Assembly: GCA_963422465.1 (NCBI GenBank) | Contig: OY730175.1 | Coordinates: forward strand, 1,426,001 to 1,490,000 | Reading direction: 5' to 3' | Length of the DNA: 64,000 nt | DNA from: Lichina pygmaea | Lineage: Eukaryota; Ascomycota; Lichinomycetes; Lichinales; Lichinaceae | In this document: positions 5,933 to 48,958 of the stretch, one piece after another | Layout: each line of letters begins with the position of its first letter | How positions within the stretch are numbered: the stretch's first letter is position 1 | Program-made: the position numbers and the translations under genes | The notes under the pieces: model-generated | Databases searched by the model: none | Told to the model about the DNA's origin: nothing | The model's input: only the letters and a program-made list of their open reading frames with translations

Positions 5933-6526
5933 TGTTACGACCCAGGAGGAACACAGTCTTTATATACTCACAGAAAGCAGCAGACAGGATACTGGACAGA
6001 AGTACCAGACAGCGTGACACGGGAACCGGTCACGTGACCAGCGAGACAAACCAGGGGGTGCTCGCCGCAGCATGCATATGCACGAACAAGTGAGCAAAGT
6101 GAGCAGAGCTCACCCAGCTCGCCGCAGCGTGCATGAAAAGTGAGCAAAGTGAGCAGAGCTCACCCAGCTCGCCGCAGCGTGCATGAAAAGTGAGCAAAGT
6201 GAGCAGAGCTCACCCAGCTCACTGCAGCGTGCATGAAAAGTGAGCAAAGTGAGCAGAGCTCACTCTGCTCACGAACTGGGCACTATATAGTCTGGCAATA
6301 GTTCCCCTATGGAACAATTGTCTTCAACTCATGTTGTGATCCAGACAACTAGATCTACTTCAATACAATCCTTTTGTACAAAGCTGTTGATCAGGTGTCA
6401 CCACCACCATGTTCCACCAAACCCCTTTGCGCTCCTTGACACTCCTCTCCTGCGAGAACCAACCCACCTTCCACCTCTCACCCTAATCCTATACTCAGAT
6501 AGGACAGTACAGTACAGACCGCAACA
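5933..6526 (+). repeat. 5' LTR of LTR fossil 2
   Basis: 594 bp, pairing with 11868-12461. A TATA-like ACTATATAGTC at about 6280 precedes the R/U5 part. The U3 part holds a tandem array (see the repeat at 6086-6270). Confidence 0.9.
6086..6270 (+). repeat. U3 minisatellite, about 50-bp unit
   Basis: About four copies of a 50-bp unit lie in U3. Each unit holds GTGAGCAAAGTGAGCAGAG, CTCACCCAGCTC and GCAGCGTGCATG. GAGCTC and GTGAGC/GCTCAC make the unit partly self-complementary. The same array occurs in the 3' LTR (about 12023-12205). It lies just upstream of the TATA-like site, so a role as a transcription factor binding array is plausible but unproven. Confidence 0.85.
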
Positions 6527-9500
6527 CTTTGAAGACCCTCAAGGATGAGTACCTCAGGAGTAACCAACCCCAACTTCCCAGATGGAAAGATTAGCGTCGC
6601 CAAGCCAGACCTGTTCTACGGTGAAAGAAACAAGGTCGACAACTGGCTTATGCAACTCCAAGTCTACTTTCAATTCCAACCAGAGACAAGGCTGCCTAAG
6701 GAAAAGTGGCCCCTCTTTGCAACCACTTACATGAGAGGCAATGCCTATTGATGGATCAAGCCCTACGTCAACAAACATCTCTCAGGAAACAGAGACCACA
6801 ACAGCACAACAGAATAGATGACAAAATGGACGTGATTCAAGGACAAGATCAAAAGGATCCTTGGACTATCTAACAAAGACAAAGTGGCTATACGAATGAT
6901 CCAGCACATCAAACAACAACGCTCAGCCGCAGAGTACACCACGCAGTTCAAACAATACTCAGTACTGACTGACTGGGACAACAACGCCCTGATGGTCATG
7001 TACTGACGTAGACTCAAGGAAAACATGAAGGATGAAATCACCTTTGACAGACAAGTGGTCAACACACTGGATGAACTCATCACACAAGCAATCAACATCG
7101 ATGACAAACTATTTGAGTGAGCGATGGAGAAACACCACAACAGAGGATACAGCCGCCCCGCATGGTATGTGAGCAACCACTACAAACCACCTAACAAGGC
7201 ACCACCACATGACCCATATGGCTATGCACCCATGGAACTGGATGCAGTCCACCACAAGGGAAGGTTCACGAAGGGAAGGAACAACAAAAAGGGGAAAGCA
7301 CTGAAGTGCTATACCTGTGGCAAGCTAGGCCACATGGCGAAAGACTGTTGTTCAAAGAACAAGGTGCACCGACAGCAACTTAATACGCTCGATGGAGACT
7401 GGAATGTCATCAAGCCAGAGGACCCACCAGGAGAGGCTCAGCTATCCCTTGAACAATAGGACAACTACGATCAGATATTGGAAGCAGCCCACCAACTGGC
7501 AACATCAGAAGGCAAGGACCTACCAGAACTAACAGGTCAGGACAAGGGACAGGAGCCCTTAACCACCTCTGATGGGGACTGAGACGAACCCACGTCTATC
7601 AAAGAAGAAATACCACGAGGAAGCTATGCTTACAGCATGGACCCACAAAATCTACGGCACGGTGAACTACAGTGGAGGTTTTGCATGAAGCACTACTGCA
7701 CCTACCACGAACAACTATGAAGGTACGGAGGACATTCACCCTACCACGCCACCTGCCACAAGCATTGGGTCAACTGCGAGAAGGATGCGTGTGAGATCCA
7801 TCTTTGGGACAAACACCAACACACCGCATTCCCCGGGCACACACATGATTGGCACAAACGCCTCATGTTCCTACAGCAAGACAACAACTACAACTGCTAC
7901 GTCGACAATTGGCAGTACTGCCTCAAGCCTGGATGTGACAAGCATCAGCAAGACAAATTCATGAACAGATTCCTCAGGACTGATGGGAAGGGCTGGACCT
8001 ATTGCCCAGTCAGTGGAAAGACACTTCAATCAGGAAAAGACTGAACTCCCTTGTCAAGGGGTGACATCGGGAGCTCAACAACATGACCCCTAGCAACGCA
8101 AAGCACCTGCGATTGCCTGTGTCACTACATGCCAACACGCCAGTACAGACATACACACTTGTTGACTCTGGAGCCAGTGGAAACTACATCTTGAGACAAC
8201 TTTACGATACCCTCAGCACTGGAAGGAGACGCAAGCAGCAGCCCTATCAGCTCACGATGGCAAATGGACAGACAGAGCTAGTCTGCCATGAGACGCAGCC
8301 AATGGAAATGGTTACCAGACACCATGCTGAAAGAATCCACCTTGATATCGTCAAGTTGGCCACTCAGGATATCTACTTGGGGATGTCTTGGCTAAAGAAG
8401 CACAACCCAGTTGTTAACTGGAAGACAGGAGTACTCATGTTTAGGAACTGCACTAACAACACAGCTCAGACCTGTTACCAGCCGCAGAAGGCGTGGACAG
8501 ATGAGGGAAGGAGTCCTCAGTGGAACCTCACTGACAGAAAGAACAACTCTCAAAAGAAGAGGTCTGTCTTGACAGGCACACCCCGGAACCAGGTGGCCAA
8601 ACAGTCAGAGATGAAGAGAGAGGAAGTTGTTAACCCTCTGGAGATCCCTGAAGAGTACTGACCTGGGTATGATAACCTCTTTCAGGAAGAGACAACAACA
8701 GCAGTGTTGCCTAAGCACCAACCTTGGGATCATAAGATCAAGTTGCAACCAGGGATGGAGCCAGGATTTGGACCAATTTACCAGTTATCAGAGAAAGAGC
8801 TCCAAGTACTTCACGAGTACCTGGAGGAAAACCTGAAAAAGGGTTTCATTCAAGAATCTCAATTGCCAGCAGGATACCTGATACTATTTGCACCAAAGAA
8901 AGACAGAAGTCTTCGACTTTGTGTGGACTACAGGAAACTCAACAACATTACCATCAAGAACTGATATCTGTTGCCAAATGCGAACAAATTGCGAGACAGG
9001 ATCAGTCAAGCTACAACCTTTACCAAGCTGGACTTGAAAGAAGCGTACAACCTGATACGCATGAAAGAAGGAGAAGAATGGAAGACAGCCTTCAGAACCT
9101 GATACAGACACTACGAGTATCTGGTTATGCCATTCGGACTCACAAACACACCAGCAACATGTCAAGCATTGATCAACAACATCATCAGAGCACACCTGGA
9201 CCAAACAGCTATCACCTACCTGGACGACATTCTTGTCTACTCGAACACGCAACAAGAACATACCAAACATGTGAAGGATGTTCTACGATGCCTACAAGAG
9301 GCAGGGCTCAAGCTCAACCTGAAGAAATGCAAGTTCAACAAACCAGAAGTTGAATTCCTCGGATATATCATAGGGATCAAAGAGATCAAGATTGACCCTG
9401 AGAAAATCAAAGTGATTCAGCAATGGCCAACACCAACATCAGTTAAGGAAGTACAAGCCTTCCTAGGATTTGCCAACTTCAACCAACAGTTCATCAAGAA

Positions 9501-11323
9501 CTACTCACAGATGGCAACTCCACTGACAGAACTCACGAAGAAGGACGTGGAGTACTGGTGGATGGAGAGACAACAAAAAGCATTCCAACAGCTCAAGGAG
9601 GCTTGCGCCAAGGAACCAGTTCTCCTCAACTTCAAGACAGGCCAGCTGACATAAATCAAGACAGACGCTTCAGATCAAGCAGTGGGAGCATGTCTATGCC
9701 AACAGGCAGACGGCAAGTGGCACCCAGTTGCCTACTACTCACGAAAGATGACACAAGCAGAACGAAACTATGATATCCACAATAAAGAGCTACTGGCAGT
9801 CGTCAACACACTTGAACACTGGAGAGTGTACACAGAAAGTAGTTCCGAACTCACCATTCTCACAGACCACAAGAATCTGACAACATTCACGACAACCAAG
9901 AAGCTGAACAGACGGCAAGTCAGATGGGCTGAACTCCTAGGGTAACACAAGTTCAAGATCTTGTACACCCCTGGACAAGACAATGGGAGAGCAGACACAC
10001 TAAGCCGACGAAAAGACCACATGGAAGATGATGAACACCAAGGAACGATCTTACAGCAGGACCAGCAAGGAAACCTGGTGCTCCAGCCACAGATCAACAA
10101 GCTCACAGCAGAAGACACTGAAGAACTAATAAGAAACTACCACAACAATCCAGCACATGGTCACCCAGGAATCTCCAAAACCACAGACCTTATCCAACGG
10201 GCAGGGAACAATGTCATTAACCTCCGACAACATGTCACAAACTACATCAGCAAGTGTCTACTATGCCAGAAAAACAAATATGGAAGACACAAGCCATACA
10301 GAGAAGAACACCCGAACACAATACCGAGAGGCCTGTGGGAAGACATGTCAATGGACTTCATCACAAAGCTACCCAAGTCCAAAGACCCAGTCACAGGAAT
10401 CACCTACGACTTGATTATGGTGATAGTGGACAGATTCACAAAATATCTAATAACAGTACTATTCAAGAAGACCCACACAGCAGAACAGTTGGGACACCTC
10501 TTACTGGACAGATTGGTCAGAGACCACGGAGTTCCAATCACAATCATTACAGACAGAGACAAACTCTTCACATCTAACTACTGGAAGACAATCAGTGCAG
10601 CCATGGGAACAAAACCCAAAATGTCTACAGCCTATCACCCACGAACTGACAGCCAGACAGAGCGAGCAAACCAAGTCCTGGAGACTTACCTACAGCATTA
10701 CATCAACAAAACCCACAGTAGTTGGGTACAGTTATTACCGGTGGCACAGCTGGCAATCAACCAGCACAGATCAGACTCAACAAAGAAATCACCATTTTTT
10801 GCCAATTTTGGACAACATGCAAACATCAGGATGCCAAGCAGAGCTTCACCAAACGTGGAGAAAGCACTCCAACACAACAAGCTCCTACGACAAACACACA
10901 CAATGATGAGGCACTACCTTCAAGAGACCTCAGAAAGAATGCAACACCAAATAGACAAGAAATTGAAAATAGCACCTCAGCTAAAGAAGGGGGATAAAGT
11001 CTACCTCCTCACAAGAAATTGGAGAACAAAGAAACCAAGAACAAAGAAACTAGACCATGTCAAGGTCAGACTATTTTCAGTCGAAGAAAAAACTGGACCA
11101 GTCAACATCAGACTGCGACTACCAAGAGATGCCAGAGTACACCCAAACTTTCATATATTGATGATTGAACCAGCCGACCAGAGCACACCCTTGCAGGAAA
11201 CATTCCATTACCAACCTGAAGAAGAACAAGAGTTTGAGGTTGAACAGATCCTGGCTAGAAAAGGTCAGCAATACCTTGTCAAGTGGAAAGGATACCCAGA
11301 CTCAGAAAATACCTGGGAACCAC

Positions 11324-11824
11324 TCAAGAACCTCGCGAACTGCCAGCTTCTTCTGCAACAGTTTCAGCAGGAGCAGGACTGAACAGCTCGGCCTGCAGGA
11401 GAGACGTGTCAATGACTGATTGAGTCAAATCCTCGCCATCCGACTCCATCTCTTTCACCAAGCACTGAAGCTTCTGCCTCGCACAGACCTCGGCACCCTC
11501 CAACACCTTTCGCTTCCGAGACAGACAAGCCTGCACTGTGGCAAGTTGTTCGAAGAGTGCATCGCATGTTGCCTTGTCAGCGGCAACGTCCTCACAGAGG
11601 TTATCCCAGGACATGTTCAAAGATTCCCAGAACACAGAGACACAAGACCTTCCGCGCTGAGTGCACGCAGCACATTTCAACTTATCGTCTTCTCCCGGCA
11701 TCTGGAAGCACGGACGACCACGGAGAACACAAAAGTCGCAGGGCGTACGTGAAACAAAACCCTGATCGCGGATTTGAGCAGCCAGCTGAGTTCGGCTAAC
11801 AGTCGCACATGACTTTGGAGGCAT
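11324..11824 (-). CDS. Antisense ORF of LTR fossil 2 with Zn2Cys6-like motif
   Basis: A 166-residue ORF on the strand opposite gag-pol. It starts 44 bp inside the 3' LTR boundary and its end overlaps the last 59 bp of the sense chromodomain frame. Near residues 29-61 are six cysteines spaced C-x2-C-x6-C-x11-C-x2-C-x6-C, which fits the fungal Zn(II)2Cys6 binuclear cluster spacing. A helical, coiled-coil-like stretch follows (LFEQLATVQACLSRKRKVLE). Fossil 3 has a homologue in the same place with all six cysteines kept, although surrounding sequence differs much more than pol does. Function is unknown; DNA binding, for example to LTRs or host promoters, is inference from the motif only. Transcription would have to start in or beyond the 3' LTR, antisense. 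Confidence 0.6.
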   Translation of the reverse strand: MPPKSCATVSRTQLAAQIRDQGFVSRTPCDFCVLRGRPCFQMPGEDDKLKCAACTQRGRSCVSVFWESLNMSWDNLCEDVAADKATCDALFEQLATVQACLSRKRKVLEGAEVCARQKLQCLVKEMESDGEDLTQSVIDTSLLQAELFSPAPAETVAEEAGSSRGS

Positions 11825-11867
11825 GACCAGATTTCATCAAGATGATGAAAGATGGAGAGGAGGATAG

Positions 11868-12461
11868 TGTTACGACCCAGGAGGAACACAGTCTTTATAT
11901 ACTCACAGAAAGCAGCAGACAGGATACTGGACAGAAGTACCAGACAGCGTGACACGGGAACCGGTCACGTGACCGGTGAGACAAACCAGGGGGTGCTCGC
12001 CGCAGCATGCATATGCACGAACAAGTGAGCAAAGTGAGCAGAGCTCACCCAGCTCGCCGCAGCGTGCATGAAAAGTGAGCAAAGTGAGCAGAGCTCACCC
12101 AGCTCACCGCAGCATGCATGAAAAGTGAGCAAAGTGAGCAGAGCTCACCCAGCTCACTGCAGCGTGCATGAAAAGTGAGCAAAGTGAGCAGAGCTCACTC
12201 TGCTCACGAACTGGGCACTATATAGTCTGGCGATAGTTCCCCTATGGAACGATCGTCTTCAACTCATGTTGTGATCCAGACAACTAGATCTACTTCAATA
12301 CAATCCTTTTGTACGAAGCCGTTGATCAGGTGTCACCACCACCACGTTCCACCAAACCCCTTCGCACTCCTTGACACTCCTCTCCTGCGAGAACCAACCC
12401 GCCTTCCACCTCTCACCCTAATCCTATACTCGGATAGGACGGTACAGTACAGACCGCAACA
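11868..12461 (+). repeat. 3' LTR of LTR fossil 2
   Basis: 594 bp, the same length as the 5' copy and about 97.5 % identical by eye, followed by the ATTTC duplication. Confidence 0.9.
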
Positions 12462-12594: not shown

Positions 12595-15419
12595 ATGCCT
12601 GTCAAAAAGAAGAAACCAGACTTCTCCCAGAACACTACCAGAAAAACAACACCTTCTCCAACAATGCCAGCTCCCAGTTCTGCTGGTACTCAGCCTAGTT
12701 CTTCTACCCCCTATCCAGCTCTCCAGAATGACTACAACCTACTGGACTCATAGCTCAAGACTCAAGCTACCCCAGAATCTGTACTGAAAAGCTGGGAGAA
12801 TATTAAGAAAAACTCTTGTTTTTATTTTATTTTATTTTATTTGATTCTTACACTGGTAGTAGCTTTACAGCCATGCAGATCTTCTAGCTAATAGTGAACT
12901 CCTTCAGAAAACCTTTGAAGAGATAAAAACTGAAGGCAGGGTGTGACTAGGGAATGTAACAAAAGAAATCTTGAAGTTTCTGGTAAGAGAAGAGAATCTA
13001 GGTATTGGATTGGGAATAGTGGAGTTTGAAAGCTAGATTAAACTGGTTTAGTCTTTTCAAAAACATAAACCAGTACAAGAACTTCTGTAGTAGCTCTGGG
13101 TTTGAAATAATAGTGGTGAAGTCTTGGGGATTAAAAGAGACTTGTTGTCTTTGTCTTGAATAAAGAGAGCATGGAGAGGTGATATGTTTTGCAGTTTCTT
13201 CTGCTTGGCCACACACACATAGTGGGGTAGGGAAGTCAGGAACTCCAGCTCTGAAAACAAAACTTGCCAGACCAATTCTTCCAGTCCTGATTTGCAGTAG
13301 CAGACTTGCCTCAGCTTTCTGTAACTCTTTGTAGAGCTTCAGATTGTTTTTGTGTGGCTTTTGACAGAAAGTCTGCCAGCCTGGATAGCTTCTTCTTTTC
13401 TTCTCTTCCCATTGGTCTTCCCACTCTTTAGTAAAGAGCTTTTGTAGTTCTTTCTTTGAACTAGCCTGGTTAGTAGTTATTTGACTTAACCAAGTGAATT
13501 TCCACTTAGGAGAGATAGTTGGGGATTCCTTTAAAGGTTTCTTCAAGAGAGAGGCATAGCTGGAAATAGTGGAAAAGATACTGTCAAGAAAGTATTTGAG
13601 AGGGGAGTTTTGAATAGAAGAAAGAAAACAGGTAGTGTGAAATTTAAAGCAGAGGTCTAGAGGTAGAAGAAAAAGCTCACTCTCTAATAGAAAAGAAGGA
13701 GTGGCTTTGAAGGCACCCCCAATAAGTCTTAGGCATCTGTTTTGAAATGAAACAAGAGAAGAGATATTGGAGGATTTTCTTAGAGGGTTAAACCAGATCC
13801 CCACTGCATAGCTCAGTAGAGATCTCAGTATAGCAGTGTACACCAGATGTGATGTGTAAACTGGAAAGCCCCAAGTAGAATAGGAAGTTCTAGAAAGAGA
13901 AGAGAGTGCTTTCTGTGCTTTTTGAAGAATAATCCTCTGGTGTTTGTGCCCGTGGAGCTTTGCATCTAGGTACACTCCAAGTACTCGCACTTCTTCTTTT
14001 GGTTTGAGAATCACATTCCCCAGTCTGAGCTTGAGCTGAAGATTGTCTGATCTTCTTCTGGAAAAATGAAGTATTTCATATTTCTCAGGAGAGAAGACTA
14101 TTCCATGTCTTGCAGTCCATGATAGACATTTGAGGTCTGTGTTCTTTAACTTCAGAAGGTTACTTTTCAAGGAGTGACCAAAAGCAAGCAGATTTGTATC
14201 ATCTGCAAACTCCAGGGCAGATACACCAGAAAAAAACTCTTGTACTAATGAAGCCCAGTCCACCAAAACCCAGTCTCTCCCCACTGGTCTGACCAACAAG
14301 ATTTTCCAGGAGCTGGAGAATATTAACAAGCGGCTAGACAAGCAAGAATCTAAGCCATCATATGCCCAGACTGTTCAGAAACATATCCCAGCTCAAATCC
14401 CTCTAGCTCCAAGAATTCTGAAGAAAGTTCGTGTCCACCCTGGTAACCAGACACCTGATATGGCCAACAGGACCCACATCCAGCTTTTTCAAGCTCTCCA
14501 AGACAGACTCCCCAGTCCTTATAATAAACAAGTCAGAGCAGTGAGAAAACTTCCCTCAGAGAATATTCTTATTAACACTGAAACCCAAGAGACTAAGAGT
14601 TTTCTGGAGAAAGACTCTGCCTGGATACCAGCTATTTTTACCAAGGAAGCAACTATCCAACCCAAGAGATTCCCAGTGTTGATTCATGGAGTCAGAACCA
14701 CAGACATCCAGCCAGAAAACCTGGAAAAAACTCGCCAGACTATCTAGAACAGCAACCCATCCCTGAGCAAGCAAATCACTATTCTAAGAGCCTACTGGTC
14801 AAAGAAGGCTATAGCTCAAAAGAAACCAGTTACTTCACTCCACCTGGATCTGGCCACCCCAGAACAGGCCAATCTTCTAATTGAGAGTGGAGTAGTGCTG
14901 GGCCACAGATTGCATGAGGCAGAGTCTTTTCTGGCTAACACAGTGGTGGCACAATACTTCAAGTGCTTTGGGTATGGACACCAAGCTCGCCTGTGCAGGA
15001 ATCAAGCTGTATGTGGTGCCTGTGAAGGCCAGCATGAAAGAAGAACCTGCCAAATCCCTGAGCAACTACTAAAGCCAAAATGCAGCAACTGCAAAGGAGC
15101 TCACCCAGCCTGGGCTAGCACATGCCCAGTACGCCAAGAAGCAGTCAAGAAGGCAAGAGAGGCATGGATTTCCCGCCCAGGGAAGTATGAGATCTCCACT
15201 GCTACCACTGTCCCAGTCACACAGTCTCCAGTTACTTTCCCCTTCATACAGACTCTTCCAGGGGGAAAAAGACAGAAAACCACAGAGCCAACTAGAAGCT
15301 CAGAGAGACTCAGAGGAGAGTCTCCAGAAGTGCAAATTCTGTCTACAAGATCAACAAACACAGGGAGAAAGCAGTCAGTCAACCCCTTCAAGATCTTTGA
15401 AGATGAAATATCTACATGA
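12595..15419 (+). pseudogene. LINE ORF1 (zinc-knuckle nucleic-acid-binding protein), interrupted
   Basis: ORF1 starts at ATG 12595 (MPVKKKKPDF) with a Ser/Thr/Pro-rich head. It is cut by a LINE insertion at 12819-14231 and resumes in frame at 14243 because the inserted copy lies between 11-bp duplications. In-frame TAG codons lie at 12751-12753 and 14746-14748. The C-terminal half (from 14895) carries three zinc knuckles. The first, near 14950, has Tyr where the first Cys would be expected (QYFKCFGYGH). The second, CGACEGQHERRTC, and the third, CSNCKGAHPAWASTC, look complete. Such ORF1 proteins coat LINE RNA. The stop codon overlaps the ORF2 start as ATGA at 15416-15419. Confidence 0.8.
12819..14231 (-). 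mobile_element. 5'-truncated LINE (copy L7) inserted in LINE ORF1
   Basis: A 1.4-kb minus-strand LINE with its A-rich tail at 12819-12842 and its truncated 5' end at about 14231, inside the RT domain just before FADD. An 11-bp duplication AAAAACTCTTG flanks it (12808-12818 and 14232-14242). ORF2 from the FADD motif to its stop (12998) is fully open. With a perfect target duplication and no stops this is one of the youngest insertions in the stack. It must postdate the LINE at 5434-18849. Confidence 0.9.
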
Positions 15420-18400
15420 AGAATACAAAGTTCACACTTCTTCAATACAATGTGCAGAAAAGCCAATCAGTCCAAGAGCTACTTCTAGCAACCCCAACTC
15501 TTCAAGAAGTAGATATTATTGCACTTCAAGAACCCTGGAAGAATCCTCACCTTCAAACCAGCACCTCAACTGTTTTTTCTTCTTTTCTTTCTTTATATTC
15601 TCCAGAGATTGGCAGAACTCTTTTTCTTATCAACAAAAACCTGAAACTGTCATCTCTCCACCCTACTTTCTGGAGTAAAGACTTTGTTTCTCTTGAAATT
15701 CATCTGGAAAAGACCTCTACTTCTCTGTGGGTGCATAATCTATACTTCACTCCCTCAAGTCAAGAGAACTACCTACAAGCATCAGAAGCTCTTCTCTGTC
15801 TACTCCAAAATGCTTTACAAGCAAAAAGGCAGCATATTCTTCTTACAGACTCAAATCTTCACCACCCTGACTAGTCAAAGAAAAGAAGACTATATTCTGA
15901 CACTGCACACAAGTTCCAAACTCTAATGAAAAACTCAAATCTGGAGTTAGCTATTGCACCTTTTACACCCACAAGAGCTAGATCTCTTTCCCACAAACCC
16001 TGTTCACCTATTGATCTTTCCTTTATATCTTCTTCTCTTTCTAACTCTCTAATCTTTTCTAAAATTGCTTTGCAGTTCTTTCATAAGTCTGACCACAGAC
16101 CTGTGCTGACTAGCCTGGACCTGGACTCATCAAGAAAAACCTGGAAGCCAGAAAGGAACTGGAAAACACTGGACACAAATCTGGCAAAACAAGAGTGTAA
16201 TAATTTGCAGCTGCTCTTCCACTTTCAAGATAAACATGAAGTGGATGAGTACTTGGAATATCTTAACCACTTTCTCCAAGAAATAGCAGACAGATGCACA
16301 GAACTCCAGAAGCAATCTAGCCACTCAGTCCCCTGGTGGAACCAAGAGATCCAAACTAAAGTTAAGCAGGAAAGAAGAATAAGAAGACAAGTGCTCAGAG
16401 GACAGGCAAGCCAAGAAGAGCTAGAAGAAGCAACTAAGCTCAAGAAGAAAGCTGTCAGAGAAGGCAAACAGAACACCTTCAGAAAACAAGTTCATGAGCT
16501 AGCCAGTTCCTCAAAATTCTGGAAGCTTGCAAAGTGGGGAAAATCAAAAGCTAACAAGACCCCTGATCTTCCTCTGGTCCCTGATCTGGAGACTCAAGAA
16601 GGACTAGCCAAAAGCTTTGAGGAGAAGACAAAATCTTTCTCAGCTCAATTCTTTCCAGAAGCACGTGTTCCAGAACCAAGTACAGAAAGTCACCAGAGTA
16701 CCCCAGAGATCCAGCTTTCTCAGGAGGTTACCACTGAAGAAGTGGAGCAAATTCTGAACAAGAAGAAACCTTTTACAGCAGGAGGAAAAGACAAGCTGCC
16801 AAATGGATTTCTGAAAGCTCTGGGTCCCAAGTTCTGCCAAGCTATAGCTGTTCTCACATCAACATGCTGGAGACTGGAATACTTTCCAGAGAAATTCAAG
16901 AATGCAAAAACAGTCTGTCTAAGAAAACCTGGCAAGGGAATCTATAACCAAGCTAAAGCCTGGCGCCCTATAGCTCTGCTAAACACAACTGGCAAGCTGA
17001 TGGAAGCTATTACAGCAGCCAGACTAAGCAAGGTAGCAGAAGAGGCTAAACTCTTGCCAGAAATCCAGATGGGGTTCAGGAAAGGCAGATCAACTGAATC
17101 AGCACTTTTCCTTCTAACTTCCCAAGTGAAAAAAGTCTGGAAAGAAGGCATGAAAGAAGGCATGGTTGCATCTCTACTTTCTCTGGACATCTCAGGAGCA
17201 TATGACAGAGTTCTCCCAGAGATTCTTCAAAAAATTCTGGAGAGAAAAGGAATCCCTCTCTGGCTAACTTCTTGGATCTTCTCTTTCTGTACCAGACGTA
17301 CCACCACCCTAGTTTTTGATGACTCTGAGTCCTCTTCTATTCCTATTCACTGTGGAGTCCCCCAAGGTTCCTCTTTGTCTTCTACTCTTTTTCTATTCTA
17401 TATTTCTGAACTTCATGACACTGTACATTCTCCTACTACTGGTGTTTCTGCTCTGGGATTTGCAGATGATACAAATCTGCTTGCATTTGGACACTCTCTT
17501 AAAAGCAACCTTCTGAAGTTGAAGAATACACATCTTAAATGTCTATCTTGGGCTGCAAGACATGGAATAGTCTTCTCTCCTGAGAAATATGAAATACTTC
17601 ATTTTTCCAGAAGAAGATCAGACAATCTGCAGCTCAAGCTTAGACTTGGGAATGTGATTCTAAAACCAAAAGAAGAAGTGTGAGTATTGGGAGTGTACCT
17701 GGATGCCAAACTCCACTGGCACAAACACCAGAGAATTATTCTTCAAAAAGCACAAAAAGCACTATCTTCTCTTTCTAGAACCTCTTACTCCACCTGGGGC
17801 TTTCCAGTTCTCACAGCAGGCCTTGTGTACACTGCAATACTCAGATCTGTACTGAGCTATGCAGTGGGAATTTGGTTCAACCCACTCAGAAAATCCTCTA
17901 ATATTTCCTCTCTTATCATATTCCAAAACAAATGTCTGAGACTTATTGGGGGTGCTTTCAAAGCCACTCCTTCTTTTCTATTAGAGAGTGAGCTTTTTCT
18001 TTTACCTCTAGATCTCTATTTTAAATTTCGCACAGCTTGTTTTCTATCTTCTATCCAAACCTCCTCTCTGAAAGACTTTCTTGACAGTACCTTTTCTACT
18101 ATTTCTTCCTATACTTCTTCACTGAGGAAACCTTTAAAGAAATGCTCAACTATCTCTCCTAATTGGAAGTTCACTTGGTTAAGTCAAATAACTACTAACC
18201 AGGCTAGTTCAAAGAAAGAACTACAAATACTCTTTACTAAAGAGTGGGAAAACCAATGGGAGGAGAAGAAAAGAAAAGGCTATGCTGGATGGCAGGTGTT
18301 TTGCCAAAAACCTCACTACAACAACCTAAAGCTCTACAAAGAGCTACAGAAAGCTGAGGCAAGTCTACTACTGCAAACCAGAACTGGGAGAATTAGTCTA

Positions 18401-18670
18401 GCAAGTTTTCTTTTCAGAGCTGGAGTCCCTGACTTTCCTACCCCCCTATGCATGTGTGGTCAAGCAGAAGAGACAGTAAAGCATATTACCTCTTCATGCT
18501 CTCTCTACTCAAGTCAAAGACAACATGCTTTCTTTAACCCCCAAGATTTCACTACTATTATTTCAAACCCAGAGCTTCTACAGAAGTTTCTGTACTGGTT
18601 TATGTCTTTGAAAAGACTAAACCAATTTAATCTGGCTTTCAAACTTCACTATTCACACTCCAACATCTAG
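15416..18670 (+). pseudogene. LINE ORF2: endonuclease and reverse transcriptase, two in-frame stops
   Basis: One frame of 1085 codons runs from ATG 15416, overlapping the ORF1 stop, to TAG 18668-18670. Domains in order: AP-type endonuclease (LLQYNVQ start, ALQEPW near 15520, closing SDHRPVL near 16090), a linker, reverse transcriptase (AWRPIALLNT near 16960, DISGAYDRV near 17190, GVPQGSSLS near 17355, FADD near 17460), thumb, and a C-terminal CMCG..EET..HIT..C motif near 18450-18500. In-frame stops occur at 15872-15874 (TAG) and 17681-17683 (TGA, where sister copies read CGA, Arg). Otherwise the frame is open, so this copy died recently or is still close to intact. Translation by stop-restart at ATGA is likely, as in other LINEs of this layout. 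Confidence 0.85.
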
Positions 18671-18849
18671 AAGCTTTTCCTACCAGACACTACAAGATTT
18701 CCTTTTGCTACACTTTCTAGTCACCTCCCTGTCTTCAGTTTTTATTCCTTTAAAAGTTTTCTGAAGAAGTTCACTATTAGCTGGAAGATCTGCATGGCTG
18801 TAAAGCTACAAACAGTGTAAGAATCAAATCAAAATCAAAAATCAAAATT
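18671..18849 (+). other. 3' UTR and tail of LINE copy L6
   Basis: The conserved 3' UTR holds CAGTTTTTATTCCT, AAAGTTTTCTGAAG and AGATCTGCATGGCTG blocks found in every LINE copy in the window. It ends in AGTGTAAGAATCAAATC with further TCAAAA units instead of pure poly(A). A repetitive A-rich 3' end of this kind is common in I/Tad-type LINEs. Confidence 0.8.
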
Positions 18850-21613: not shown

Positions 21614-22212
21614 TGTTACGACCCAGGGATGGGAGCCACTCATTTATAGGCAATCAGGCCGCGGGCCAGGCAAGAGGACACCATGGAAGTCAAGTGACCA
21701 ACCAACAAGGGGTCACGTGACTGTCGAGACACACACGGGAGTCTCGACGCATGATGCATGAAGCATTGAGACAATCTCACCAGTCTCGACGCAGGGTGCA
21801 TGAAGCATCAAGACAATCTCACCTGTCTTGACGCAGGATGCATGAAGCATCAAGACAATCTCACCCGTCTCAACGCAGGGTGCATAACATGGTGGGACTG
21901 TCAAGACAATCTCACCCGTCTCGACGTCGAGACTGTCAAGACAATCTCGATCATCTCGACAGGCCAGCACTATATAGTCCGGTGATAGTTCCCTTATGGA
22001 ACAATCGTCTTCAACTCATGTTGTGATCCAGACAACTAGATCTACTTCAATACAATCCTTTGTACGAAGCCATTGATCAGGTGTCACCACCACCACGTTC
22101 CACCAAACCCCTTCGTGCTCCTTGACACTCCTCTCCTGCGAGAACCAACCTGCCTTCCACCTCTCGCCCTAATCCTATACTCAGATAGGACGGTACAGTA
22201 CGGACCGCAACA
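21614..22212 (+). repeat. 5' LTR of LTR fossil 3
   Basis: 599 bp. The R/U5 part, from CACTATATAGTCC at about 21968 onward, is almost the same as in fossil 2. The U3 part is not, apart from the first dozen bases. Confidence 0.9.
21720..21950 (+). repeat. U3 minisatellite, about 42-bp unit
   Basis: About four to five imperfect copies of a roughly 42-bp unit (GACGCAGGGTGCATGAAGC, then AGACAATCTCACC and GTCTCGAC). Units differ mainly at TCGA sites, which appear as TCGA, TTGA or TCAA. The GCAG.RTGCATGAA core is also seen in the unrelated-looking 50-bp unit of fossil 2. The matching array of the 3' LTR is at about 27600-27830. Confidence 0.85.
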
Positions 22213-25200
22213 CTTTGAAGACCCTCAAGGATGAGTACCTCAGGAGCAACCAACCCCAACTTCCCAGATGGAAAGATTAGCGTCGCCAAGCCAGACCTGT
22301 TCTACGGTGAAAGGAACAAGGTTGATGATTGGCTCATGCAACTCCAAGTCTACTTTCAATTCCAACCAGAGACGAAGCTGCCTAAAGAAAAGTGGCCACT
22401 CTTTGCAACCACTTACATGAGAGGCAATACTTATTGATGGATCAAACCCTACATCAACAAACATCTCTCAGGAAACAGAGACCACAACAGCACATCAGAA
22501 TGGATGACAAAATGGACGCAATTCAAGGACAAGATCAAAAGGATCCTTGGACCATCTAACAAAGACAAAGTGGCTATACGAATGATCCAGCACATCAAAC
22601 AACAACGCTCAGCCGCAGAGTACACCACGCAGTTCAAACAATACTCAGTACTGACTGACTGGGACGACAACGCCCTGATGGTCATGTACCGACGTGGACT
22701 CAAGGAAAACGTGAAGGATGAAATCACCTTTGACGGACGAGCAGTCGACACACTGGACGAACTCATCGCACAAGCAATCAACATCGATGACAAACTATTC
22801 GAGCGAGTGATGGAGAAACACCACAACAGAGGATACAGCCGCCCCGCATGGCATGTGAGCAACCACTACAAGCCGCCTAACAAGGCACCGCCACATGATC
22901 TATATGGCTATGCACCCATGGAACTGGATGCAGTCCACTACAAGGGAAGGTTCACGAAGGGAAGGAACAACAAAAAGGGGAAAGCACTGAAGTGCTATGC
23001 CTGTGGCAAGCTAGGCCACATGGCGAAAGACTGTCGTTCAAAGAACAAGGTGCACTGACAGCAACTTAATACGCTCGACGGAGACTGGAATGTCATCAAG
23101 CCAGAGGACCCACCAGGAGAGGCTCAGCTATCCCTTGAACAATGGGACAACTACGATCAGATATTGGAAGCAGCCCACCAACTGGCAACATCAGGAGGCA
23201 AGGACCTACCAGAACTAACAGGTCAGGACAAGGGACAGGAGCCCTTAACCACCTCTGATGGGGACCGAGATGAACCCGCGTCTATCAAAGAAGAAATACC
23301 ACAAGGAAGCTATGCTTACAGCATGGACCCATGAAATCTACGGCACGGCGAACTACAGTGGAGGTTTTGCACGAGGCACTACTGCACCTACCACGAACAA
23401 CTACGAAGGTACGGAGGACATTCACCCTACCACGCCACCTGCCACAAACATTGGGTCAATTGCAAGAAGGATGCGTGTGAGATCCACCTTTGGGACAAAC
23501 GCCAACACACCGCATTCCCCGGGCACACACATGATTGGCACGAACACCTCATGTTCCTACAGCAAGGCAACAACAACAACTGCTACATCAACAACTGGCA
23601 GTACTGCCTTAAGCCTGGATGTGACAAGCATCAGCAAGACAAATTCATGAACAGATTCCTCAGAACTGATGGGAATGGCTGGACCCATTGCCCAGTCAGT
23701 GGTAAGACACTTCGATCAGGAAAAGACTGAACTCCCTTGTCAAGGGGTGACATCGGGAGCTCAACAACATGACCCCTAGCAACACAAAGCACCTGCGATT
23801 GCCTGTGTCACTACATGCCAACACGCCGATACAGACATACGCACTTGTTGACTCTGGAGCCAGTGGAAACTACATTTCAAGACAACTTTACGATACCCTT
23901 GGCACTGGAAGGAGACGCAAGCAGCAGCCCTATCAGCTCACGATGGCAAATGGACAGACAGAGCTAGTCTGCCATGAGACGCAGCCAATGGAAATGGTTA
24001 CCGGACACTATGCTGAAAGGATCCACCTTGATATTGTTGAGTTGGCCACTCAGGATATCTATTTGGGGATGCCTTGGCTAAAGAAGCACAACCCAGTTGT
24101 TAACTGGAAGACAGGAGTACTCACGTTTAGGAACTGCACTAACAACACAGCTCGGACCTGTTACCAGCCGCAGAAGGCGTGGACAGATGAGGGAAGGAGT
24201 CCTCAGTGGAACCTCACTGACAGAAAGGATGACTCTCAAGAGAAGAGGTCCACCTCGACAGGCACACCCCGGAACCAGGTGGCCAAACAGTCAGAGATGA
24301 AGAGAGAGGAAGTTGTTAACCCTCTGGAGATCCCTGAAGAGTACTGACCTGGGTATGATAACCTCTTTCAGGAAGAGACAACGACAGCAGCGTTGCCTAA
24401 GCACCAACCTTGGGATCATGAGATCAAGTTGCAACCAGGGACGGAGCCAGGATTTGGACCAATTTACCAGTTATCAGAGAAAGAGCTCCAAGTACTTCGC
24501 GAGTACCTGGAGGAAAACCTGAAAAAGGGTTTCATTCAAGAATCTCAATCGCCAGCAGGATACCCGATACTATTTGCACTAAAGAAAGACGGAAGTCTTC
24601 GACTTTGTGTGGATTACAGGAAACTCAACGACATTACCATCAAGAACTGATATCTGTTGCCAAATGCGAACAAATTGCGAGACAGGATCAGTCAAGCTAC
24701 AATCTTTACCAAGCTGGACTTGAAAGGAGCATACAACCTGATACGCATGAAAAAAGGAGAAGAATGGAAGACAGCCTTCAGAACCCGATACGGACACTAC
24801 GAGTATCTGGTTATGCTATTCGGACTCACAAACGCACCAGCAACATGTCAAGCATTGATCAACAACGTCATCAGAGCACACCTGGACCAAACAGCTATCG
24901 CCTACTTGGACGACATTCTTGTCTACTCGAACACGCAACAGGAACATACCAAACATGTGAAGGATGTTCTACGATGCCTACAAAAGGCAGAGCTCAAGCT
25001 CAACCTGAAGAAATGCGAGTTCAACAAACCGGAAGTTGAATTCCTCAGATACATCATAGAGATTGAAGGGATCAAGATTGACCCTGAGAAAATCAAAGCG
25101 ATTCAGCAATGGCCAACACCGACATCAGTTAAATGGCAACACCACTGACAGAACTCACGAAGAAGGACATGGAGTACCAGTGGATGGAGAGACAACAAAA

Positions 25201-27019
25201 AGCATTCCAACAGCTCAAGGACACTTGCGCCAAGGAACCAGTTCTCCTCAACTTCAAGACAGGCCAACCGACACAAATCGAGACAGACGCTTCAGATCAG
25301 GCAGTGGGAGTATGTCTATGCCAACAGGCAGACGGCAAGTGGCACCCAGTTGCCTACTACTCACGCAAAATGTCACAAGCGGAACGAAACTATGATATCC
25401 ACGATAAAGAGCTACTGGCAGTCGTCAACGCACTCGAACACTGGAGAGTGTACGCGGAAAGCAGTTCTGAACTCACCATTCTCACAGACCACAAGAATCT
25501 GACAACATTCACGACAACCAAGAAGCTGAACAGACGGCAAGTCAGATAGGCTGAACTCCTAGGGCAACACAAGTTCAAGATCTTGTACACCCCTAGACAA
25601 GACAATGGGAGAGCAGACGCACTAAGCCGACAAAAAGACCACATGGAAGATGATGAACACCAAGGAACGATCTTACAGCAGGACCAGCAAGGAAACCTGG
25701 TGCCTCAACTACAGATCAACAAGCTCACGGCAGAAGACACTGAAGAACTAATAAGGAACTACCACGATAATCCAGCACATGGTCACCCAGGAATCACCAA
25801 AACCACAGACCTGATCCAACAGGCAGGGAACAATGTCATCAATCTCTGACAACACGTCACAAGCTACATCAACAAATGTCTACTATGCCAGAAAAACAAG
25901 CATGGAAGACACAAGCCATATGGAGAAGGACACCCGAACACGATACCGAGAGGCCCGTGGGAAGATGTGTCAATAGACTTCATCACAAAGCTACCCAAGT
26001 CCAAAGACCCAGTCACAGGAATCACCTACAACTCAATTATGGTGATTGTGGACAGATTCACAAAATACCTAATAGCGGTACCATTCAAGGAAACCCACAC
26101 AGCAGAGCAGTTGGGACACCTCCTACTGGACAGATTGGTCAGGGACCACAGAGTTCCAATCACAGTCATTACTGACAGAGACAAACTCTTCACATCCAAC
26201 TACTAGAAAACAATCAGTGCAGCCATGGGAACAAAACCCAAGATGTCTACAGCCTACCACCCACGAACTGACAGCCAGACGGAGTGAGCAAACCAAGTCC
26301 TGGAGACTTATTTGCGGCATTACATCAACCAGACCCACAGCAATTGGGTACAATTGTTACCAGTGGCACAGCTGGCAATCAACCAGCACAGATCAGACTC
26401 AACAAAGGAATCGCCATTCTTTGCCAATTTTGGACGACACGCAAACATCGGAATGCCAAGCAGAGCTTCACCAAACACGGAGAAAGCACTCCAACATGAC
26501 AAGCTCCTACGACAAACGCACACGATGATGAGGTATTACCTTCAAGAGACCTCAGAAAAGATGTAACGCCAAATGGACAAAAAATCGAAAATGGCACCTC
26601 AGCTGAAGAAGGGGGATAAAGTCTACCTCCTCACAAAAAATTGGAAAGTCAAGAAACCAAGAACAAAGAAACTGGACCATGTCAAGGTCAGACTATTTTC
26701 AGTCGAAGAAAGAACTGGACCAGTCAACGTCAGACTGCGACTACTGAGAGATGCTTGGGTACACCCAAACTTTCACATCTCAATGATTGAATTAGCTGAC
26801 CAGAGCACACCCTTGCAGGAAACATTTCATTACCAACCAGAGGAAGAACAGGAATTCGAGGCCGAACAGATCCTGAAGAGAAAAGGTCAGTGATACCTTG
26901 TCAAGTGGAAAGACTACCCAGACTCGGAAAATACCTGGGAGCCACTCAGGAACCTCGCGAACTGCCAGCTCCTCCTGCAGCAGTTCCAGCAGGAGCAGGA
27001 CTGAACAGCTCGGCCTGCA

Positions 27020-27446
27020 GTGCGGACGCGTCAATAACTGTCGCCGACAAATCCTCACCATCTGCCTCCATTTCAGCAACAAGGCACTGGAGCTTCTTCT
27101 TTGCTCAACCCTCAGCACCCTCAAGAACCTTTCGCTTTCGGGACACACAAGCCTGCAGCTCGGCAAGCTGCTTGACAAGAGCATCCCACTTGGCCTCATC
27201 GACAGCCAAATCCTCGCAAAGGTTATCCTGAGTCATGTTCAGCGACTCCCAAGAAAGTGACACACAGGACTTTCCCTGACGAGTGCACTCAGCGCACTTC
27301 AACTTATCGTTGTCGTCAGACATTCGGAAGCAGGGCTTGTGGTTCAAAACACAGAAGTCACATGGAGCAAGCGACACAAAGTTATGATCACGGATCTGGG
27401 CTGCCAGTTGGTTTCGGTAAGCAGAGGCACGTGATTTTGCAGACAT
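27020..27446 (-). pseudogene. Antisense Zn2Cys6-like ORF of LTR fossil 3 (homologue of 11324-11824)
   Basis: The homologous start is ATG at 27446 (minus). The region around residues 29-61 keeps all six cysteines with the same spacing (CDFCVL...PCF, KCAECTRQGKSC), followed by conserved WESLN, NLCED and SRKRKVLEGAE blocks. By eye about two thirds of residues agree with the fossil 2 version, well below the agreement in pol. The order is the same: 3' end of pol, antisense ORF, purine tract, LTR. Confidence 0.6.
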
Positions 27447-27491
27447 ACTCAAGAATTCATCAGGATGATGAATGAAGGAGAGGAGGGTAGT

Positions 27492-28089
27492 GTTACGACC
27501 CAGAGATGGAAGCCACTCATTTATAGGCAATCAGGCCGCGGGCCAGGCAAGAGGACACCATGGAAGTCAAGTGACCAACCAACAAGGGGTCACGTGACTG
27601 TCGAGACACACACAGGAGTCTCGACACATGATGCATGAAGCATCAAGACAATCTCACCAGTCTTGACGCAGGGTGCATGAAGCATCGAGACAATCTTACC
27701 CGTCTCGACGCAGGATGCATGAAGCATCAAGACAATCTCACCCGTCTTGACGCAGGGTGCATAACATGGTGGGACTGTCGAGACAATCTCACCCGTCTCG
27801 ACATCAAGACTGTCGAGACAATCTCGATCGTCTTGACAGGCCAGCACTATATAGTCCGGCGATAGTTCCCTTATGGAACAATCGTCTTCAACTCATGTTG
27901 TGATCCAGACAACTAGATCTACTTCAATACAATCCTTTGTACGAAGCCATTGATCAGGTGTCACCACCACCATGTTCCACCAAACCCCTTCGTGCTCCTT
28001 GACACTCCTCTCCTGCGAGAACCAACCCGCCTTCCGCCTCTCGCCCTAATCCTATACTCGGATAGGACGGTACGGTACGGACCGCAACA
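27492..28089 (+). repeat. 3' LTR of LTR fossil 3
   Basis: 598 bp, about 96 % identical to 21614-22212; differences concentrate in the U3 tandem units and at CpG sites. Confidence 0.9.
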
Positions 28090-28495: not shown

Positions 28496-30488
28496 TTTTT
28501 ATTTTTATTTGATTCTTACACTGATAGTAGCTTTTCAGCTATGCAGATCTTCTAGCTAAGAGTGATTTTCTTCAGAAAACCTTTAGAGGAATAAAAACTG
28601 AAGACTGGGGGTGACTAGAGGATGTAGCAAAAGGAAATCTTGTAGTGACTGGTAGAAAGAAGACTTCTAGATATTAGAGTGTGAATAGTGGAGTTTGAAA
28701 GCCAGATTAAACTGGTTCAGTCTTTTCAAAGACATGAACCAGTATAGAAACTTCTGTAGAAGCTCTGGGTTTGAAATAATAGAAGTGAAATCTTGAGAAT
28801 TAAAAGGAGCTTGCTGTCTTTGACTTGAATAAAGAGAGCATGAAGAGGTGATATAGTTCACTGTCTCTTCTGCTTGACCACAGACACATAAAGGGGTAGG
28901 AAAGTCTGGAACTCCAGCTCTGAATAGAAAACTTGCCAGGCCAATTCTCCCAGTTCTGGTTTGTAGTAGTAGACTTGCCTCAGCTTTCTGTAGCTCTTTG
29001 TAGAGCTTCAGGTTGTTGTGGTGAGGCTTTTGACAAAACACCTGCCACCCAGAGTAGCTTTTTCTTTTCTTCTCCTCCTATTGGTTTTCCCACTCTTTAA
29101 CAAAGAGTTTCTGTAGTTCTTTCTTTGAACTTGCCTGGTTAGTAGTTAATTGGTTTAACCAAGTGAACTTCCAATAGGGGGAGATAGTTGAGGATTCCTT
29201 TAAAGGTTTCTTCACAGAAGAGGCATAGTGGGAGATATTGGAAAAGATATTGTCCAGAAGTGTTTTCAGAGAGGAGGTTTGAATAGAAGAGAGAAAACAG
29301 ACTGTGCGAAATTTGAAATAGAGATCTAGAGGTAAAAGAAAAAGCTCACTCTCTAATAAGAAAGATGGAGTGGCTTTGAAGGCACCTCCAATAAGTCTCA
29401 GGCATTTGTTCTGGAATGTGCTAAGAGAAGAGATATTAGAAGATTTTCTTAGAGGATTGAACCAGATCCCCACAGTATAACTCAGTAAAGATCTGAGTAT
29501 TGCAGTGTACACAAGACGTGATGTGAGGACTGGGAAACCCCAAGTAGAATATGAAGTTCTAGAAAGAGAGGAAAGTGCTTTCTGGGCTTTTTGAAGAATA
29601 ATTCTCTGGTGCTTATGCCAGTGGAGTTTTGCATCCAGGTACACTCCTAATACTCGCACTTCTTCTTTTGGTCTTAGAATCACATTCCCCAGTCTGAGCT
29701 TAAGCTGAAGATTGTCTGATCTTCTTCTGGAAAAATGAAGTATTTCATATTTCTCAGGAGAGAAGACTATTCCATGTCTTCCAGCCCATGATAGACATTT
29801 AAGGTGTGTGTTCTTTAACTTCAGAAGGTTGCTTTTTAGAGAGTGTCCAAATGCAAGCAGATTTGTATCATCTGCAAATCCCAGAGCAGCAACACCAGTG
29901 GAAGGAGAGTGTACAGTTTCATGAAGTTCAGAAATATAAAATAGAAACAGAATAGAAGATAAAGGGGAATCTTGGGGAACTCCACAGTGAATAGGAATAG
30001 CAGAAGACTCAGAGTCATCAAACACAAGAGTAGTAGAACGACTGGTGCAGAAAGAGAGAATCCAGGAAGATAGCCAGAGAGGAATTCCTTTTCTCTCTAG
30101 GATTTGTTGGAGGATCTTAGGTAGAACTCTGTCGTAGGCTCCTGAGATATCCAGAGAAAGTAGAGATGCAACCATGCCTTCCTTCCAGACTTTTTCCACT
30201 TGGGAAGTTAGTAGGAAAAGTGCTGATTCAGTTGATCTTCCTTTTCTGAAGCCCATCTGGATTTCTGGCAAAAGTCTAGCTTCTTCTGCTACCTTGCTTA
30301 GTCTGGTTGCTGTAATAACTTCCATCAGCTTGCCAGTTGTGTTTAGCAGAGCTATAGGGCGCCAGGCTTTAGCTTGGTTATAGCATCCTTTACCAGGTTT
30401 TCTTAGACAGACTGTCTTTGCATTCTTGAACCTCTCTGGAAAGTATTCCAGTCTCCAGCATGTTGATGTGAGACCAGCCATAGCTTGG
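28496..30488 (-). mobile_element. 5'-truncated LINE (copy L8)
   Basis: A 2.0-kb minus-strand copy starting in the RT finger/palm region (TCWRLEYFPERF, near 30460) and ending in an A-rich tail at 28496-28510. A perfect 13-bp duplication CTGTACTAGTGAT flanks it (28483-28495 and 30489-30501). RT motifs seen: AWRPIALLNT, DISGAYDRV, FADD, then the C-terminal VPDF..CVCG..EET motif. A single in-frame TAG at 29075-29077 stands where sister copies have TGG. The intact target duplication and near-open frame argue for a recent insertion. Confidence 0.9.
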
Positions 30489-48118: not shown

Positions 48119-48958
48119 CGAGGGAGGAATTGGTCATCTTAGCTAGAATATAGTTCTTCGAGAAAGTGGTACAGGTCCCTCAGACAGATAAAGCGGAGGG
48201 CATTGGCCTGGTAGCAGGCCAGGGCCACCTCACAGTAGATCATACAGCAGGTGGCCCATAGACCTATATTGTTGTCCAAGACCTGGGAGGGGCCACTGGT
48301 GAGAAGATGTTGGCCAGTCGCCTGCAAGGCCTGATGCTGGTAGATCTCAAGACAGAGCTTGGGGCAGCAGAGCTGAGAGTGACATAATGGATCCTAGTGG
48401 TGTCCAGGTGAGTTGGGTTGCTTGTACAACATTGAGGAGAAGCTTGCTGAGGATGATGCCCTATCTGCAAGTAGAAGATTGTGTCCAAACTCCAAGAGCA
48501 CATTGGAGATCCCCACACTTGAAACTGACATTCTTTGTCAGCACATGTGTCTGATACGTACTGAGTTCACCAGTCCCAGACTTCCTACTTAGTTGCTTCA
48601 CACTCTCCTGGATATAGAAGATGTTGAGTAGTTTCAGACCCAGTTGATCAGCCCTTGCATATCTTGATAACTATCCACCTTCTTACTCCCTCTGTCTTTC
48701 TTTGGAAAGTCACTGTCAGACCAGATGTTCTCCAGCAGTGACCTGATCTTATCATGTGTCTTGGTGGGGTTGTTGGTGATGTAGTTGTAGTACTTGGTGA
48801 TGTTTAGGTTGAGTATCACCCCACCCTGGAGCAGAGGTGGATGGGTGTTCTGGTTGCTACATCACCAAAAAAATTCATGGCACTGTACTCTAGTTAGTGT
48901 GTGTCTGGACACCACATAGCTACTATAGCATCCTGGGCACTCTACAGCAGCAGCTGAG
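48119..48958 (-). other. Unidentified decayed coding-like region
   Basis: On the minus strand several frames read like protein without matching a family I know: ILNLNITKYYNYITNNPTK near 48790-48740 and NNIGLWATCCMIYCEVALA near 48270-48215. Base composition is lower in GC than the neighbours and resembles the repeat island. It directly follows, in minus orientation, the LTR-like fragment at 48959-49200. It could be the inside of a different element or a captured gene; stops and frame changes suggest it is dead. Confidence 0.4.

Follow-up and report, generated by a model that had tools for sequence, protein, structure and literature searches.

The region analysed here is a 64,000-nucleotide (nt) stretch of the Lichina pygmaea genome (assembly GCA_963422465.1, contig OY730175.1, positions 1,426,001 to 1,490,000 of the forward strand), referred to below as the window. 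It lies on contig 7 of a 32.5-Mb genome in 8 contigs and contains two chromovirus insertions, each of which carries an open reading frame (ORF) on the strand opposite to gag-pol, between the end of pol and the 3′ long terminal repeat (LTR). We refer to the type of the first window copy as family A, to that of the second as family B, and to an older third type as family C. We find that the antisense ORF is a protein-coding gene that was formerly under purifying selection in the replicating lineage. Comparison of the families further suggests that the ORF and the neighbouring U3 region of the LTR look like one exchanged cassette. The features of the two insertions are as follows:

5933-12461, plus strand: element A, a chromovirus insertion from LTR to LTR, with the 5-bp flanking repeat ATTTC found by eye
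9961-11382, plus strand: 3′ part of pol of element A, encoding integrase and a C-terminal chromodomain (Pfam)
11324-11824, minus strand: antisense ORF of element A, 166 open codons and a stop
Residues 29-61 and 65-128 of the antisense ORF of A: cysteine cluster and predicted long helix (AlphaFold2 for the helix)
11868-12461, plus strand: 3′ LTR of element A
11895-11901, minus strand: antisense TATA box TATATAA of A, 27 nt into the LTR and about 70 nt upstream of the antisense ATG
12014-12207, plus strand: U3 tandem array of A, a 50-bp unit repeated 3.9 times (Tandem Repeats Finder); 5′ LTR counterpart at 6079-6270
12218-12225, plus strand: sense TATA-like box CTATATAG preceding R, element A
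21614-28089, plus strand: element B, the second chromovirus insertion, with target duplication TTTCT and a different antisense ORF/U3 cassette
26946-27446, minus strand: antisense ORF of element B, 166 codons co-linear with A, with a single TGA (codon 114)
27519-27525, minus strand: antisense TATA box TATAAAT of B, 27-29 nt into the LTR across the scored B copies
27617-27762, plus strand: U3 tandem array of B, a 42-bp unit repeated 3.5 times (Tandem Repeats Finder); 5′ LTR counterpart at 21740-21885
27847-27854, plus strand: sense TATA-like box CTATATAG preceding R, element B

Both insertions have the anatomy of chromoviruses, with integrase followed by a chromodomain and LTRs with a 5-bp target duplication (ATTTC for A, TTTCT for B); the 3′ part of pol of element A matches the Pfam families rve, Integrase_H2C2 and Chromo (E 3.8e-17). 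The LTRs are about 0.6 kb long in both A and B, and the two LTRs of one element are 97.3% identical in A (598-nt aligned stretch) and 95.7% identical in B (602-nt aligned stretch). The antisense ORF starts 43-44 nt from the 3′ LTR and ends 59 nt within pol, and this position and orientation between pol and 3′ LTR are those of the plant aORF-3R and Botrytis brtn genes discussed below. A preliminary description of the locus had reported the ORF in both elements, with six cysteines spaced C-x2-C-x6-C-x11-C-x2-C-x6-C; on both counts it was correct, the frame being open in copy 1 and interrupted once, by TGA, in copy 2.

The same description held the gene to be kept in two copies, which proved far too few. 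Searching the genome with the A protein gave 509 candidates, of which the best 150 were scored, all with 82-100% identity and 7 of the 150 free of stops. A search with an 88-residue piece of the B protein gave 491, and 49 of the best 150 scored were stop-free within the piece; with the B-like copy L076 as query (best 150 of 509 scored), the final two places were A copies. At least 150 places were thereby scored per query, and the antisense ORF is carried by hundreds of mostly decaying copies. For further comparison, the A sample comprised 40 copies (the window copy, 29 best-match loci and 10 short ones) and the B sample 41 (the window copy and 40 loci, every one stop-free in the searched piece). 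The frame is open from ATG to stop in 7 of the 40 A copies and 25 of the 41 B copies. Stop codons recur in A at codon 135 (31 copies), codon 105 (10 copies) and codon 11 (7 copies), and in B at codons 114 and 11 (8 copies each). As these positions are occupied by arginine in intact copies, the recurrent stops fit decay at CpG dinucleotides, and present-day copies are decaying, largely via CpG transitions.

Past selection on a protein, which had been proposed from the two window copies, was borne out by comparison of the families. We limited the test to the 147 codons beyond the pol overlap, comparing the 40 A with the 41 B copies. In the ORF frame the median nonsynonymous and synonymous divergences were dN 0.222 and dS 1.815, giving a dN/dS of 0.12 that is rough, as dS is saturated. 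The remaining antisense frames gave 1.2 and 1.55 and the sense frames 1.0, 0.227 and 1.89, the value of 0.227 being the mirror of the shared wobble position. Per A × B pair, 36.7, 25.0 and 74.7 differences fall at codon positions 1, 2 and 3, respectively. The A and B ORFs differ by no insertion or deletion across 166 codons and share start and stop, and the five other frames contain a mean of 1.5-14.7 stops per copy each and are open in 0 of 81 copies. In a shuffle test, the observed ratio of nonsynonymous to synonymous differences per site (pN/pS) was 0.24-0.29 against a random mean of 0.80-0.85, and none of 500 shuffles reached the observed value in any of 7 A-B pairs. Family C shows the same excess at the third codon position when compared with A and B. 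Over the 147 codons, the ORFs of four decayed C copies share 53-64% identity with one A copy and 48-58% with one B copy; in each of the eight shuffle comparisons among these copies, 0-1 of 300 shuffles reached the observed ratio. Polymorphic and fixed differences were also compared, with a ratio of nonsynonymous to synonymous changes of 44:49 for fixed differences and of 37:39 (A) and 36.6:38.4 (B) for non-CpG polymorphism, that is, with no contrast; the ratios for CpG polymorphism were 48:16 (A) and 38:16 (B). We do not lean on this comparison, because the copies were chosen for similarity or lack of stops.

The cysteine spacing is the same in A and B, and all six positions are predominantly cysteine in both families, with no more than two copies per family lacking any one of them. 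In the decayed C copies the pattern is still traceable, some having lost one cysteine. At cysteine codons 29 and 51 the A-B difference is confined to the third base and synonymous, and the other four cysteines keep the same main codon. Of the blocks initially described as persistent, NLCED needs correction: many other copies of both families read NLRED, so that the cysteine of NLCED looks like the product of CpG decay in parallel. The basic stretch SRKRK is conserved in at least 90% of the 22 antisense proteins that we used as a set for Pfam comparison (E limit 10). Zn2Cys6 domains follow the spacing C-x2-C-x6-C-x5..12-C-x2-C-x6..8-C, a range within which the spacing of the ORF falls. AlphaFold2 predicts a long helix at residues 65-128, with a mean predicted local distance difference test score (pLDDT) above 90 in blocks of residues 81-120. 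We therefore describe the product as a cysteine cluster with Zn2Cys6 spacing followed by a predicted coiled coil, its Zn2Cys6 membership being only putative; judging from the model, the coiled coil probably makes the protein a dimer.

Database comparisons of the predicted protein gave little beyond this. None of the 22 members reached a Pfam cut-off; a weak zf-PHD-like match (best E 0.0029; 17.6 bits, cut-off 27) was not used. Zn_clus (PF00172) itself matches above its cut-off at 27 other places of this genome. Profile alignment with hhalign against eight of these 27 host domains aligned all six cysteines (P 0.006, probability 6.3%), and against DUF3716 it aligned only the first cysteine pair (P 0.005); with such similar P values the comparison does not discriminate between the two. 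DUF3716 (PF12511) was considered as a parent and rejected as a separate family: the best score was 13.8 bits against a cut-off of 22, in 1 of 22 members, and none of the 14 DUF3716 places listed in the genome is among the scored places of the A and B searches. A sequence search of the PDB with the window protein gave 0 matches, and a profile search gave three (E 0.4-1.1), each over the helical part. No relatives were confirmed in viral and genome contig collections, in each of which two short peptide patterns were searched. As a separate observation, two near-identical short DUF3716 frames with stops, L091 and L094 (G000:C1:3917342-3918297 and C2:4655181-4656136), look repeated and decaying, and DUF3716 may likewise travel with mobile elements in this genome.

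Divergence between A and B is distributed very unevenly along the element. Over 3167 nt that comprise R-U5, gag and the beginning of pol, the two share 95.1% identity; in R-U5 of the 3′ LTRs the figure is 94.8%. In the pol end adjoining the ORF, the A × B dS is 0.251 against within-family values of 0.16 and 0.136 (952 of 1160 pairs passed the identity filter; median 292 codons), compared with 1.8 in the ORF. Identity drops right after the pol stop and is at background level in U3, which is unalignable. Counting as fixed those differences present at 90% in each group, we found 13 in 1148 pol-end columns (an alignment of 69 copies), 93 in 441 columns of the ORF and 0 in 200 of R-U5. L014 and L046 were left out of the identity profile, the fixed-difference counts and the pol tree, and the ten 698-base A loci that lack U3 (L079-L088) were excluded from all three and from the counts of arrays and TATA boxes given below. 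With a close backbone and a deeply different ORF and U3, recombination that replaced both together is the simplest explanation, and this pattern suggests that the two form a single exchanged cassette.

Family C provides a reference for these distances. It came to light through an orphan R-U5 fragment in the window (48957-49185, minus strand), the upstream part of which, used as query, matched no other scored place. We compared transversions, which escape CpG decay, in trimmed pieces of 8 A and 9 B copies of our choosing and of 4-5 C copies. The A-B distances are 0.010 in pol, 0.128 in the ORF and 0.219 in the left part of U3, and the A-C distances are 0.015, 0.053 and 0.038, respectively. The B pol end is therefore as near to A as that of C, or nearer, and the B cassette is 2.4 to 6 times more distant. 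Such a mismatch is unexpected at constant region-specific rates, and acquisition of ORF and U3 from an unsampled lineage would explain it. Distances in R-U5 (A-B 0.021, A-C 0.026) were not used, as the B-B distance of 0.039 exceeds A-B, a sign of misalignment. The LTR sample of C consists of L105, L106, L108 and L110, from nine loci fetched, together with L101; L107, L109 and L111 were excluded because foreign sequence lies within or next to the ORF, and L112 and L113 belong to family B. Two loci with C-type U3 have unusual arrangements. At L100 (G000:C5:244963-246083) C-type U3 sequence directly adjoins a B-type antisense ORF and LTR, which looks as if a B element may have inserted into a C LTR. 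At L101 (G000:C7:3213055-3214175) an insert that has repeats of GTGGACGAGC and the ends TGTTAAGG...CCTTAACA splits the C-type U3; it may be a solo LTR of another element.

The U3 regions of the three families carry arrays of short half-sites, and array length differs between copies. The A unit is typically GTGAGC-3-GTGAGC-3-GCTCAC-3-GCTCRC, the figures giving the spacing in bp. B has half-sites GTCGAGAC ... GTCTCGAC in inverted pairs, partly CpG-decayed, and the best preserved C copy (L106) has GYGAGC, GCTCGC and GCTCGA half-sites, some of them spaced by 3 bp as in A. All 30 of the A copies with flanks contain A-type half-sites (GTGAGC 2-10 times, GCTCAC 2-8 times), and none of 40 B copies does. 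B-type half-sites are present in all 40 B copies in which R was found (of 41 in total; L046, with R not recognised, is unscored), and a looser B pattern that allows for CpG decay also matches once in 6 of 30 A copies. Among the scored copies, none pairs the ORF of one family with the array of the other.

These arrays are located between two opposed TATA boxes. The antisense strand bears a TATAWAW box 26-29 nt into the LTR from its left edge. This box is present in 30 of 30 A, 39 of 39 B and 4 of 5 C copies, compared with 0.1-0.4% in shuffles; two of the 41 B copies (L046 and L076) have no recognised LTR start and are left out of this count. The copies are related, and the boxes accordingly represent three lineages and not 73 events. 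At the opposite end of U3, before R, a sense box CACTATATAGTC is found in 18 of 30 A, 40 of 41 B and 3 of 5 C copies. The earlier idea of transcription from the back of the 3′ LTR fits this anatomy, and to that extent is supported. The same antisense box is present in the 5′ LTRs (window 5960-5966 in A and 21642-21648 in B), where it may aim a promoter outward into the host flank of each insertion. L046 (G000:C1:2423343-2426606) has a stop-free B antisense ORF with other sequence just before the ATG and no recognised LTR, and may be a relic or a host-driven copy. Both chromoviruses are also surrounded by inverted repeat copies (window 12998-14341, 17142-18673 and 28664-30195), which contain an ORF that we take to resemble the tail of a Tad-like LINE (long interspersed element).

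Based on this arrangement, we propose that the antisense ORF encodes an accessory protein that binds the element's own U3 array and sets its transcription, a model to which we give about an even chance of being correct. Transcription of the gene would be driven by the TATA promoter on the left edge of the 3′ LTR, with the promoter that the element would use for itself pointing the other way at the right edge of U3. The protein, dimerising through its predicted coiled coil, would bind the inverted half-sites between both promoters, and could act there as an auto-activator, an auto-repressor or an anti-silencer. Gene and array behave as a single cassette, and recombination replacing both is the simplest origin for that of B. 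Retroviral replication offers an established route for such an exchange: the first strand transfer joins the R-U5 of one RNA to the U3 of another, the block being closed by a template switch that follows near the pol end. A further step, which we put forward tentatively and think rather unlikely, is that regulator and operator are swappable, each protein recognising only the array of its own family, so that exchange on a constant backbone makes independently regulated families. Phage immunity regions show comparable independent regulation, as do VANC proteins and their motifs in plant transposons. In a genome with CpG-decaying copies, activation or anti-silencing of the own family is the likeliest use of such a cassette.

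A number of our results weigh against this model. With regard to selection, copies were picked by score (A) or lack of stops (B), which biases the set towards intact frames. Among A copies, the ORF frame has a ratio of 0.43, not below those of three other frames (0.43-0.49), and within family B the low ratios of the ORF frame (0.38) and its mirror (0.31), against 0.63-0.92 elsewhere, could stem from the picking of stop-free copies; given these indistinct values, the firm signal of selection is that between families, that is, in the replicating lineage. With regard to the protein, the Zn2Cys6 transcription factor originally envisaged is matched in its cysteine spacing and not in the Pfam search, in which 0 of the 22 members matched Zn_clus at an E limit of 10 (HMMER filters hide most matches above about 0.1). 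The residues between cysteines 2 and 3 (VLRGRP or VLNHKP) are without most of the basic run of host Zn_clus domains. The cysteine part is modelled with a pLDDT of about 50 (45.6 when modelled separately), and Foldseek returned no match with E below 5 for either model (best E 5.7 and 5.1). DNA binding, zinc binding and transcription are all inferred from sequence. With regard to the cassette, a topology conflict between pol and cassette was sought and none was found, as pol likewise places A with C, at 5 of 7 informative sites. The pol tree requires only two changes between A and B labels, with two B copies lying within an A clade of 12 (support 1.0). Exchange is a single event, and the adjacency of ORF and U3 makes their pairing expected from linkage alone. 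With regard to the array, an exact-6-mer shuffle of one 50-bp A unit, which contains one mirrored pair, reached this in 394 of 1000 cases and is not significant, so that the claim of a half-site array rests on its regular repetition; and host factors may bind the U3 arrays instead.

An alternative that we regard as possible, if unlikely, is that the antisense gene is real and its protein acts elsewhere, in nuclear import or as a chaperone of RNA or the integration complex, the arrays being enhancers for host factors and the joint travel of ORF and U3 mere adjacency. Linkage by itself explains the ORF-array pairing, the conserved SRKRK run would suit such a protein, the accessible text of PMC7264820 discusses the plant aORF-3R proteins as being accessory and in part nuclear, and Tnt1 subfamilies are known to diverge in U3 only (PMC1838419, as far as its available text goes). 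What it leaves unexplained is a divergent block that spans both ORF and U3, and inverted half-site arrays between opposed promoters; a coiled coil preceded by a cysteine cluster would also be the anatomy of a DNA binder. Capture of a host Zn2Cys6 gene fragment that has since drifted without function could account for the Zn2Cys6-type spacing and the hhalign alignment to eight host domains (P 0.006). For a host progenitor, the coverage is that of four protein searches of the genome, each taking in the best 150 places. Drift without function is contradicted by the purifying selection between A, B and C, and we consider this explanation quite improbable.

Retrotransposon antisense transcripts can function as RNA, as discussed in the part of PMC7264820 available, and the antisense strand might serve as a double-stranded RNA trigger or as a regulatory transcript, the ORF being incidental. 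Frame-specific constraint between the families, the absence of indels and the conserved start and stop largely refute this, leaving it very improbable indeed. The probability of a chance ORF, or of a shadow of sense-strand coding, is close to negligible. Its final 59 nt do overlap the end of pol, and one sense frame has the mirrored low ratio of 0.227, but the 147 tested codons lie outside pol, 3.4-4.4 stops per copy interrupt that sense frame, each of the 81 copies has stops in all five other frames, and the A × B ratio is lowest in the antisense frame. Our preferred reading is an element-encoded, probably DNA-binding protein that would regulate its own U3.

How does this arrangement compare with known systems? 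HBZ of HTLV-1, an animal retrovirus, is a basic leucine zipper (bZIP) protein read from the 3′ LTR against gag-pol. An antisense promoter in the 3′ LTR of HTLV-1 is cited in PMC7264820. Genes of the antisense kind that lie between pol and the 3′ LTR have been described from plants and from Botrytis and Sclerotinia, and this 2020 review assigns them no known function (PMC7264820). The preliminary description knew of no case with this arrangement, but the layout is in print, as brtn, an extra antisense gene between pol and 3′ LTR of the Boty elements of Botrytis cinerea (PMC8365987, PMC7264820, PMC4227169), and as the plant aORF-3R genes. Boty has a chromodomain and an additional gene (PMC4227169), brtn (Zhao et al. 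2011) being cited also in PMC8365987 and PMC5987419. As a chromodomain element with an antisense gene it is the nearest fungal likeness, by description only, and the available text of the citing descriptions mentions no cassette exchange. The plant aORF-3R genes (Grande gene23, RIRE2, Retand and PvRetro13) are similar in layout, and in Grande an antisense promoter lies upstream of gene23 (PMC7264820); they differ in host kingdom, and the accessible text of that paper contains neither the word zinc nor a mention of a paired U3 array. Tnt1 of Solanaceae likewise combines a common coding part with differing U3 regions, but no antisense gene accompanying U3 is mentioned in what is available of PMC1838419. 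In two fungal surveys, on Paracoccidioides, where a Gypsy element with a chromodomain is described (PMC4427930), and on LTR elements of Blastomyces (PMC11540331), the words antisense and opposite do not occur in the text accessible. Among the literature matches listed, a scope outside which most subscription papers fall, we recognised neither a Zn2Cys6-like antisense ORF nor an antisense gene with a swapped U3 array.

The layout of the antisense gene itself is thus already described; what is new is the en-bloc difference of ORF and U3 and the family-specific pairing of ORF and array. Here, the antisense gene comes with a candidate target in the inverted-repeat array, a candidate promoter in the antisense TATA box and a natural experiment in two cassettes on a similar backbone, and the question of what antisense genes do can be reduced to testing the binding of each of two proteins to each of two arrays. 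VANC of the Arabidopsis VANDAL elements belongs to another kind of transposable element, and the word zinc is absent from the accessible text on it (PMC5735166). It is alike in being an element-encoded binder that recognises short tandem motifs in the noncoding DNA of its own element, with which it co-diverges (PMC5735166). VANC is the closest functional model for the L. pygmaea cassettes: there, binding and anti-silencing have been demonstrated (PMC5735166), whereas here binding by the antisense protein is what we infer.
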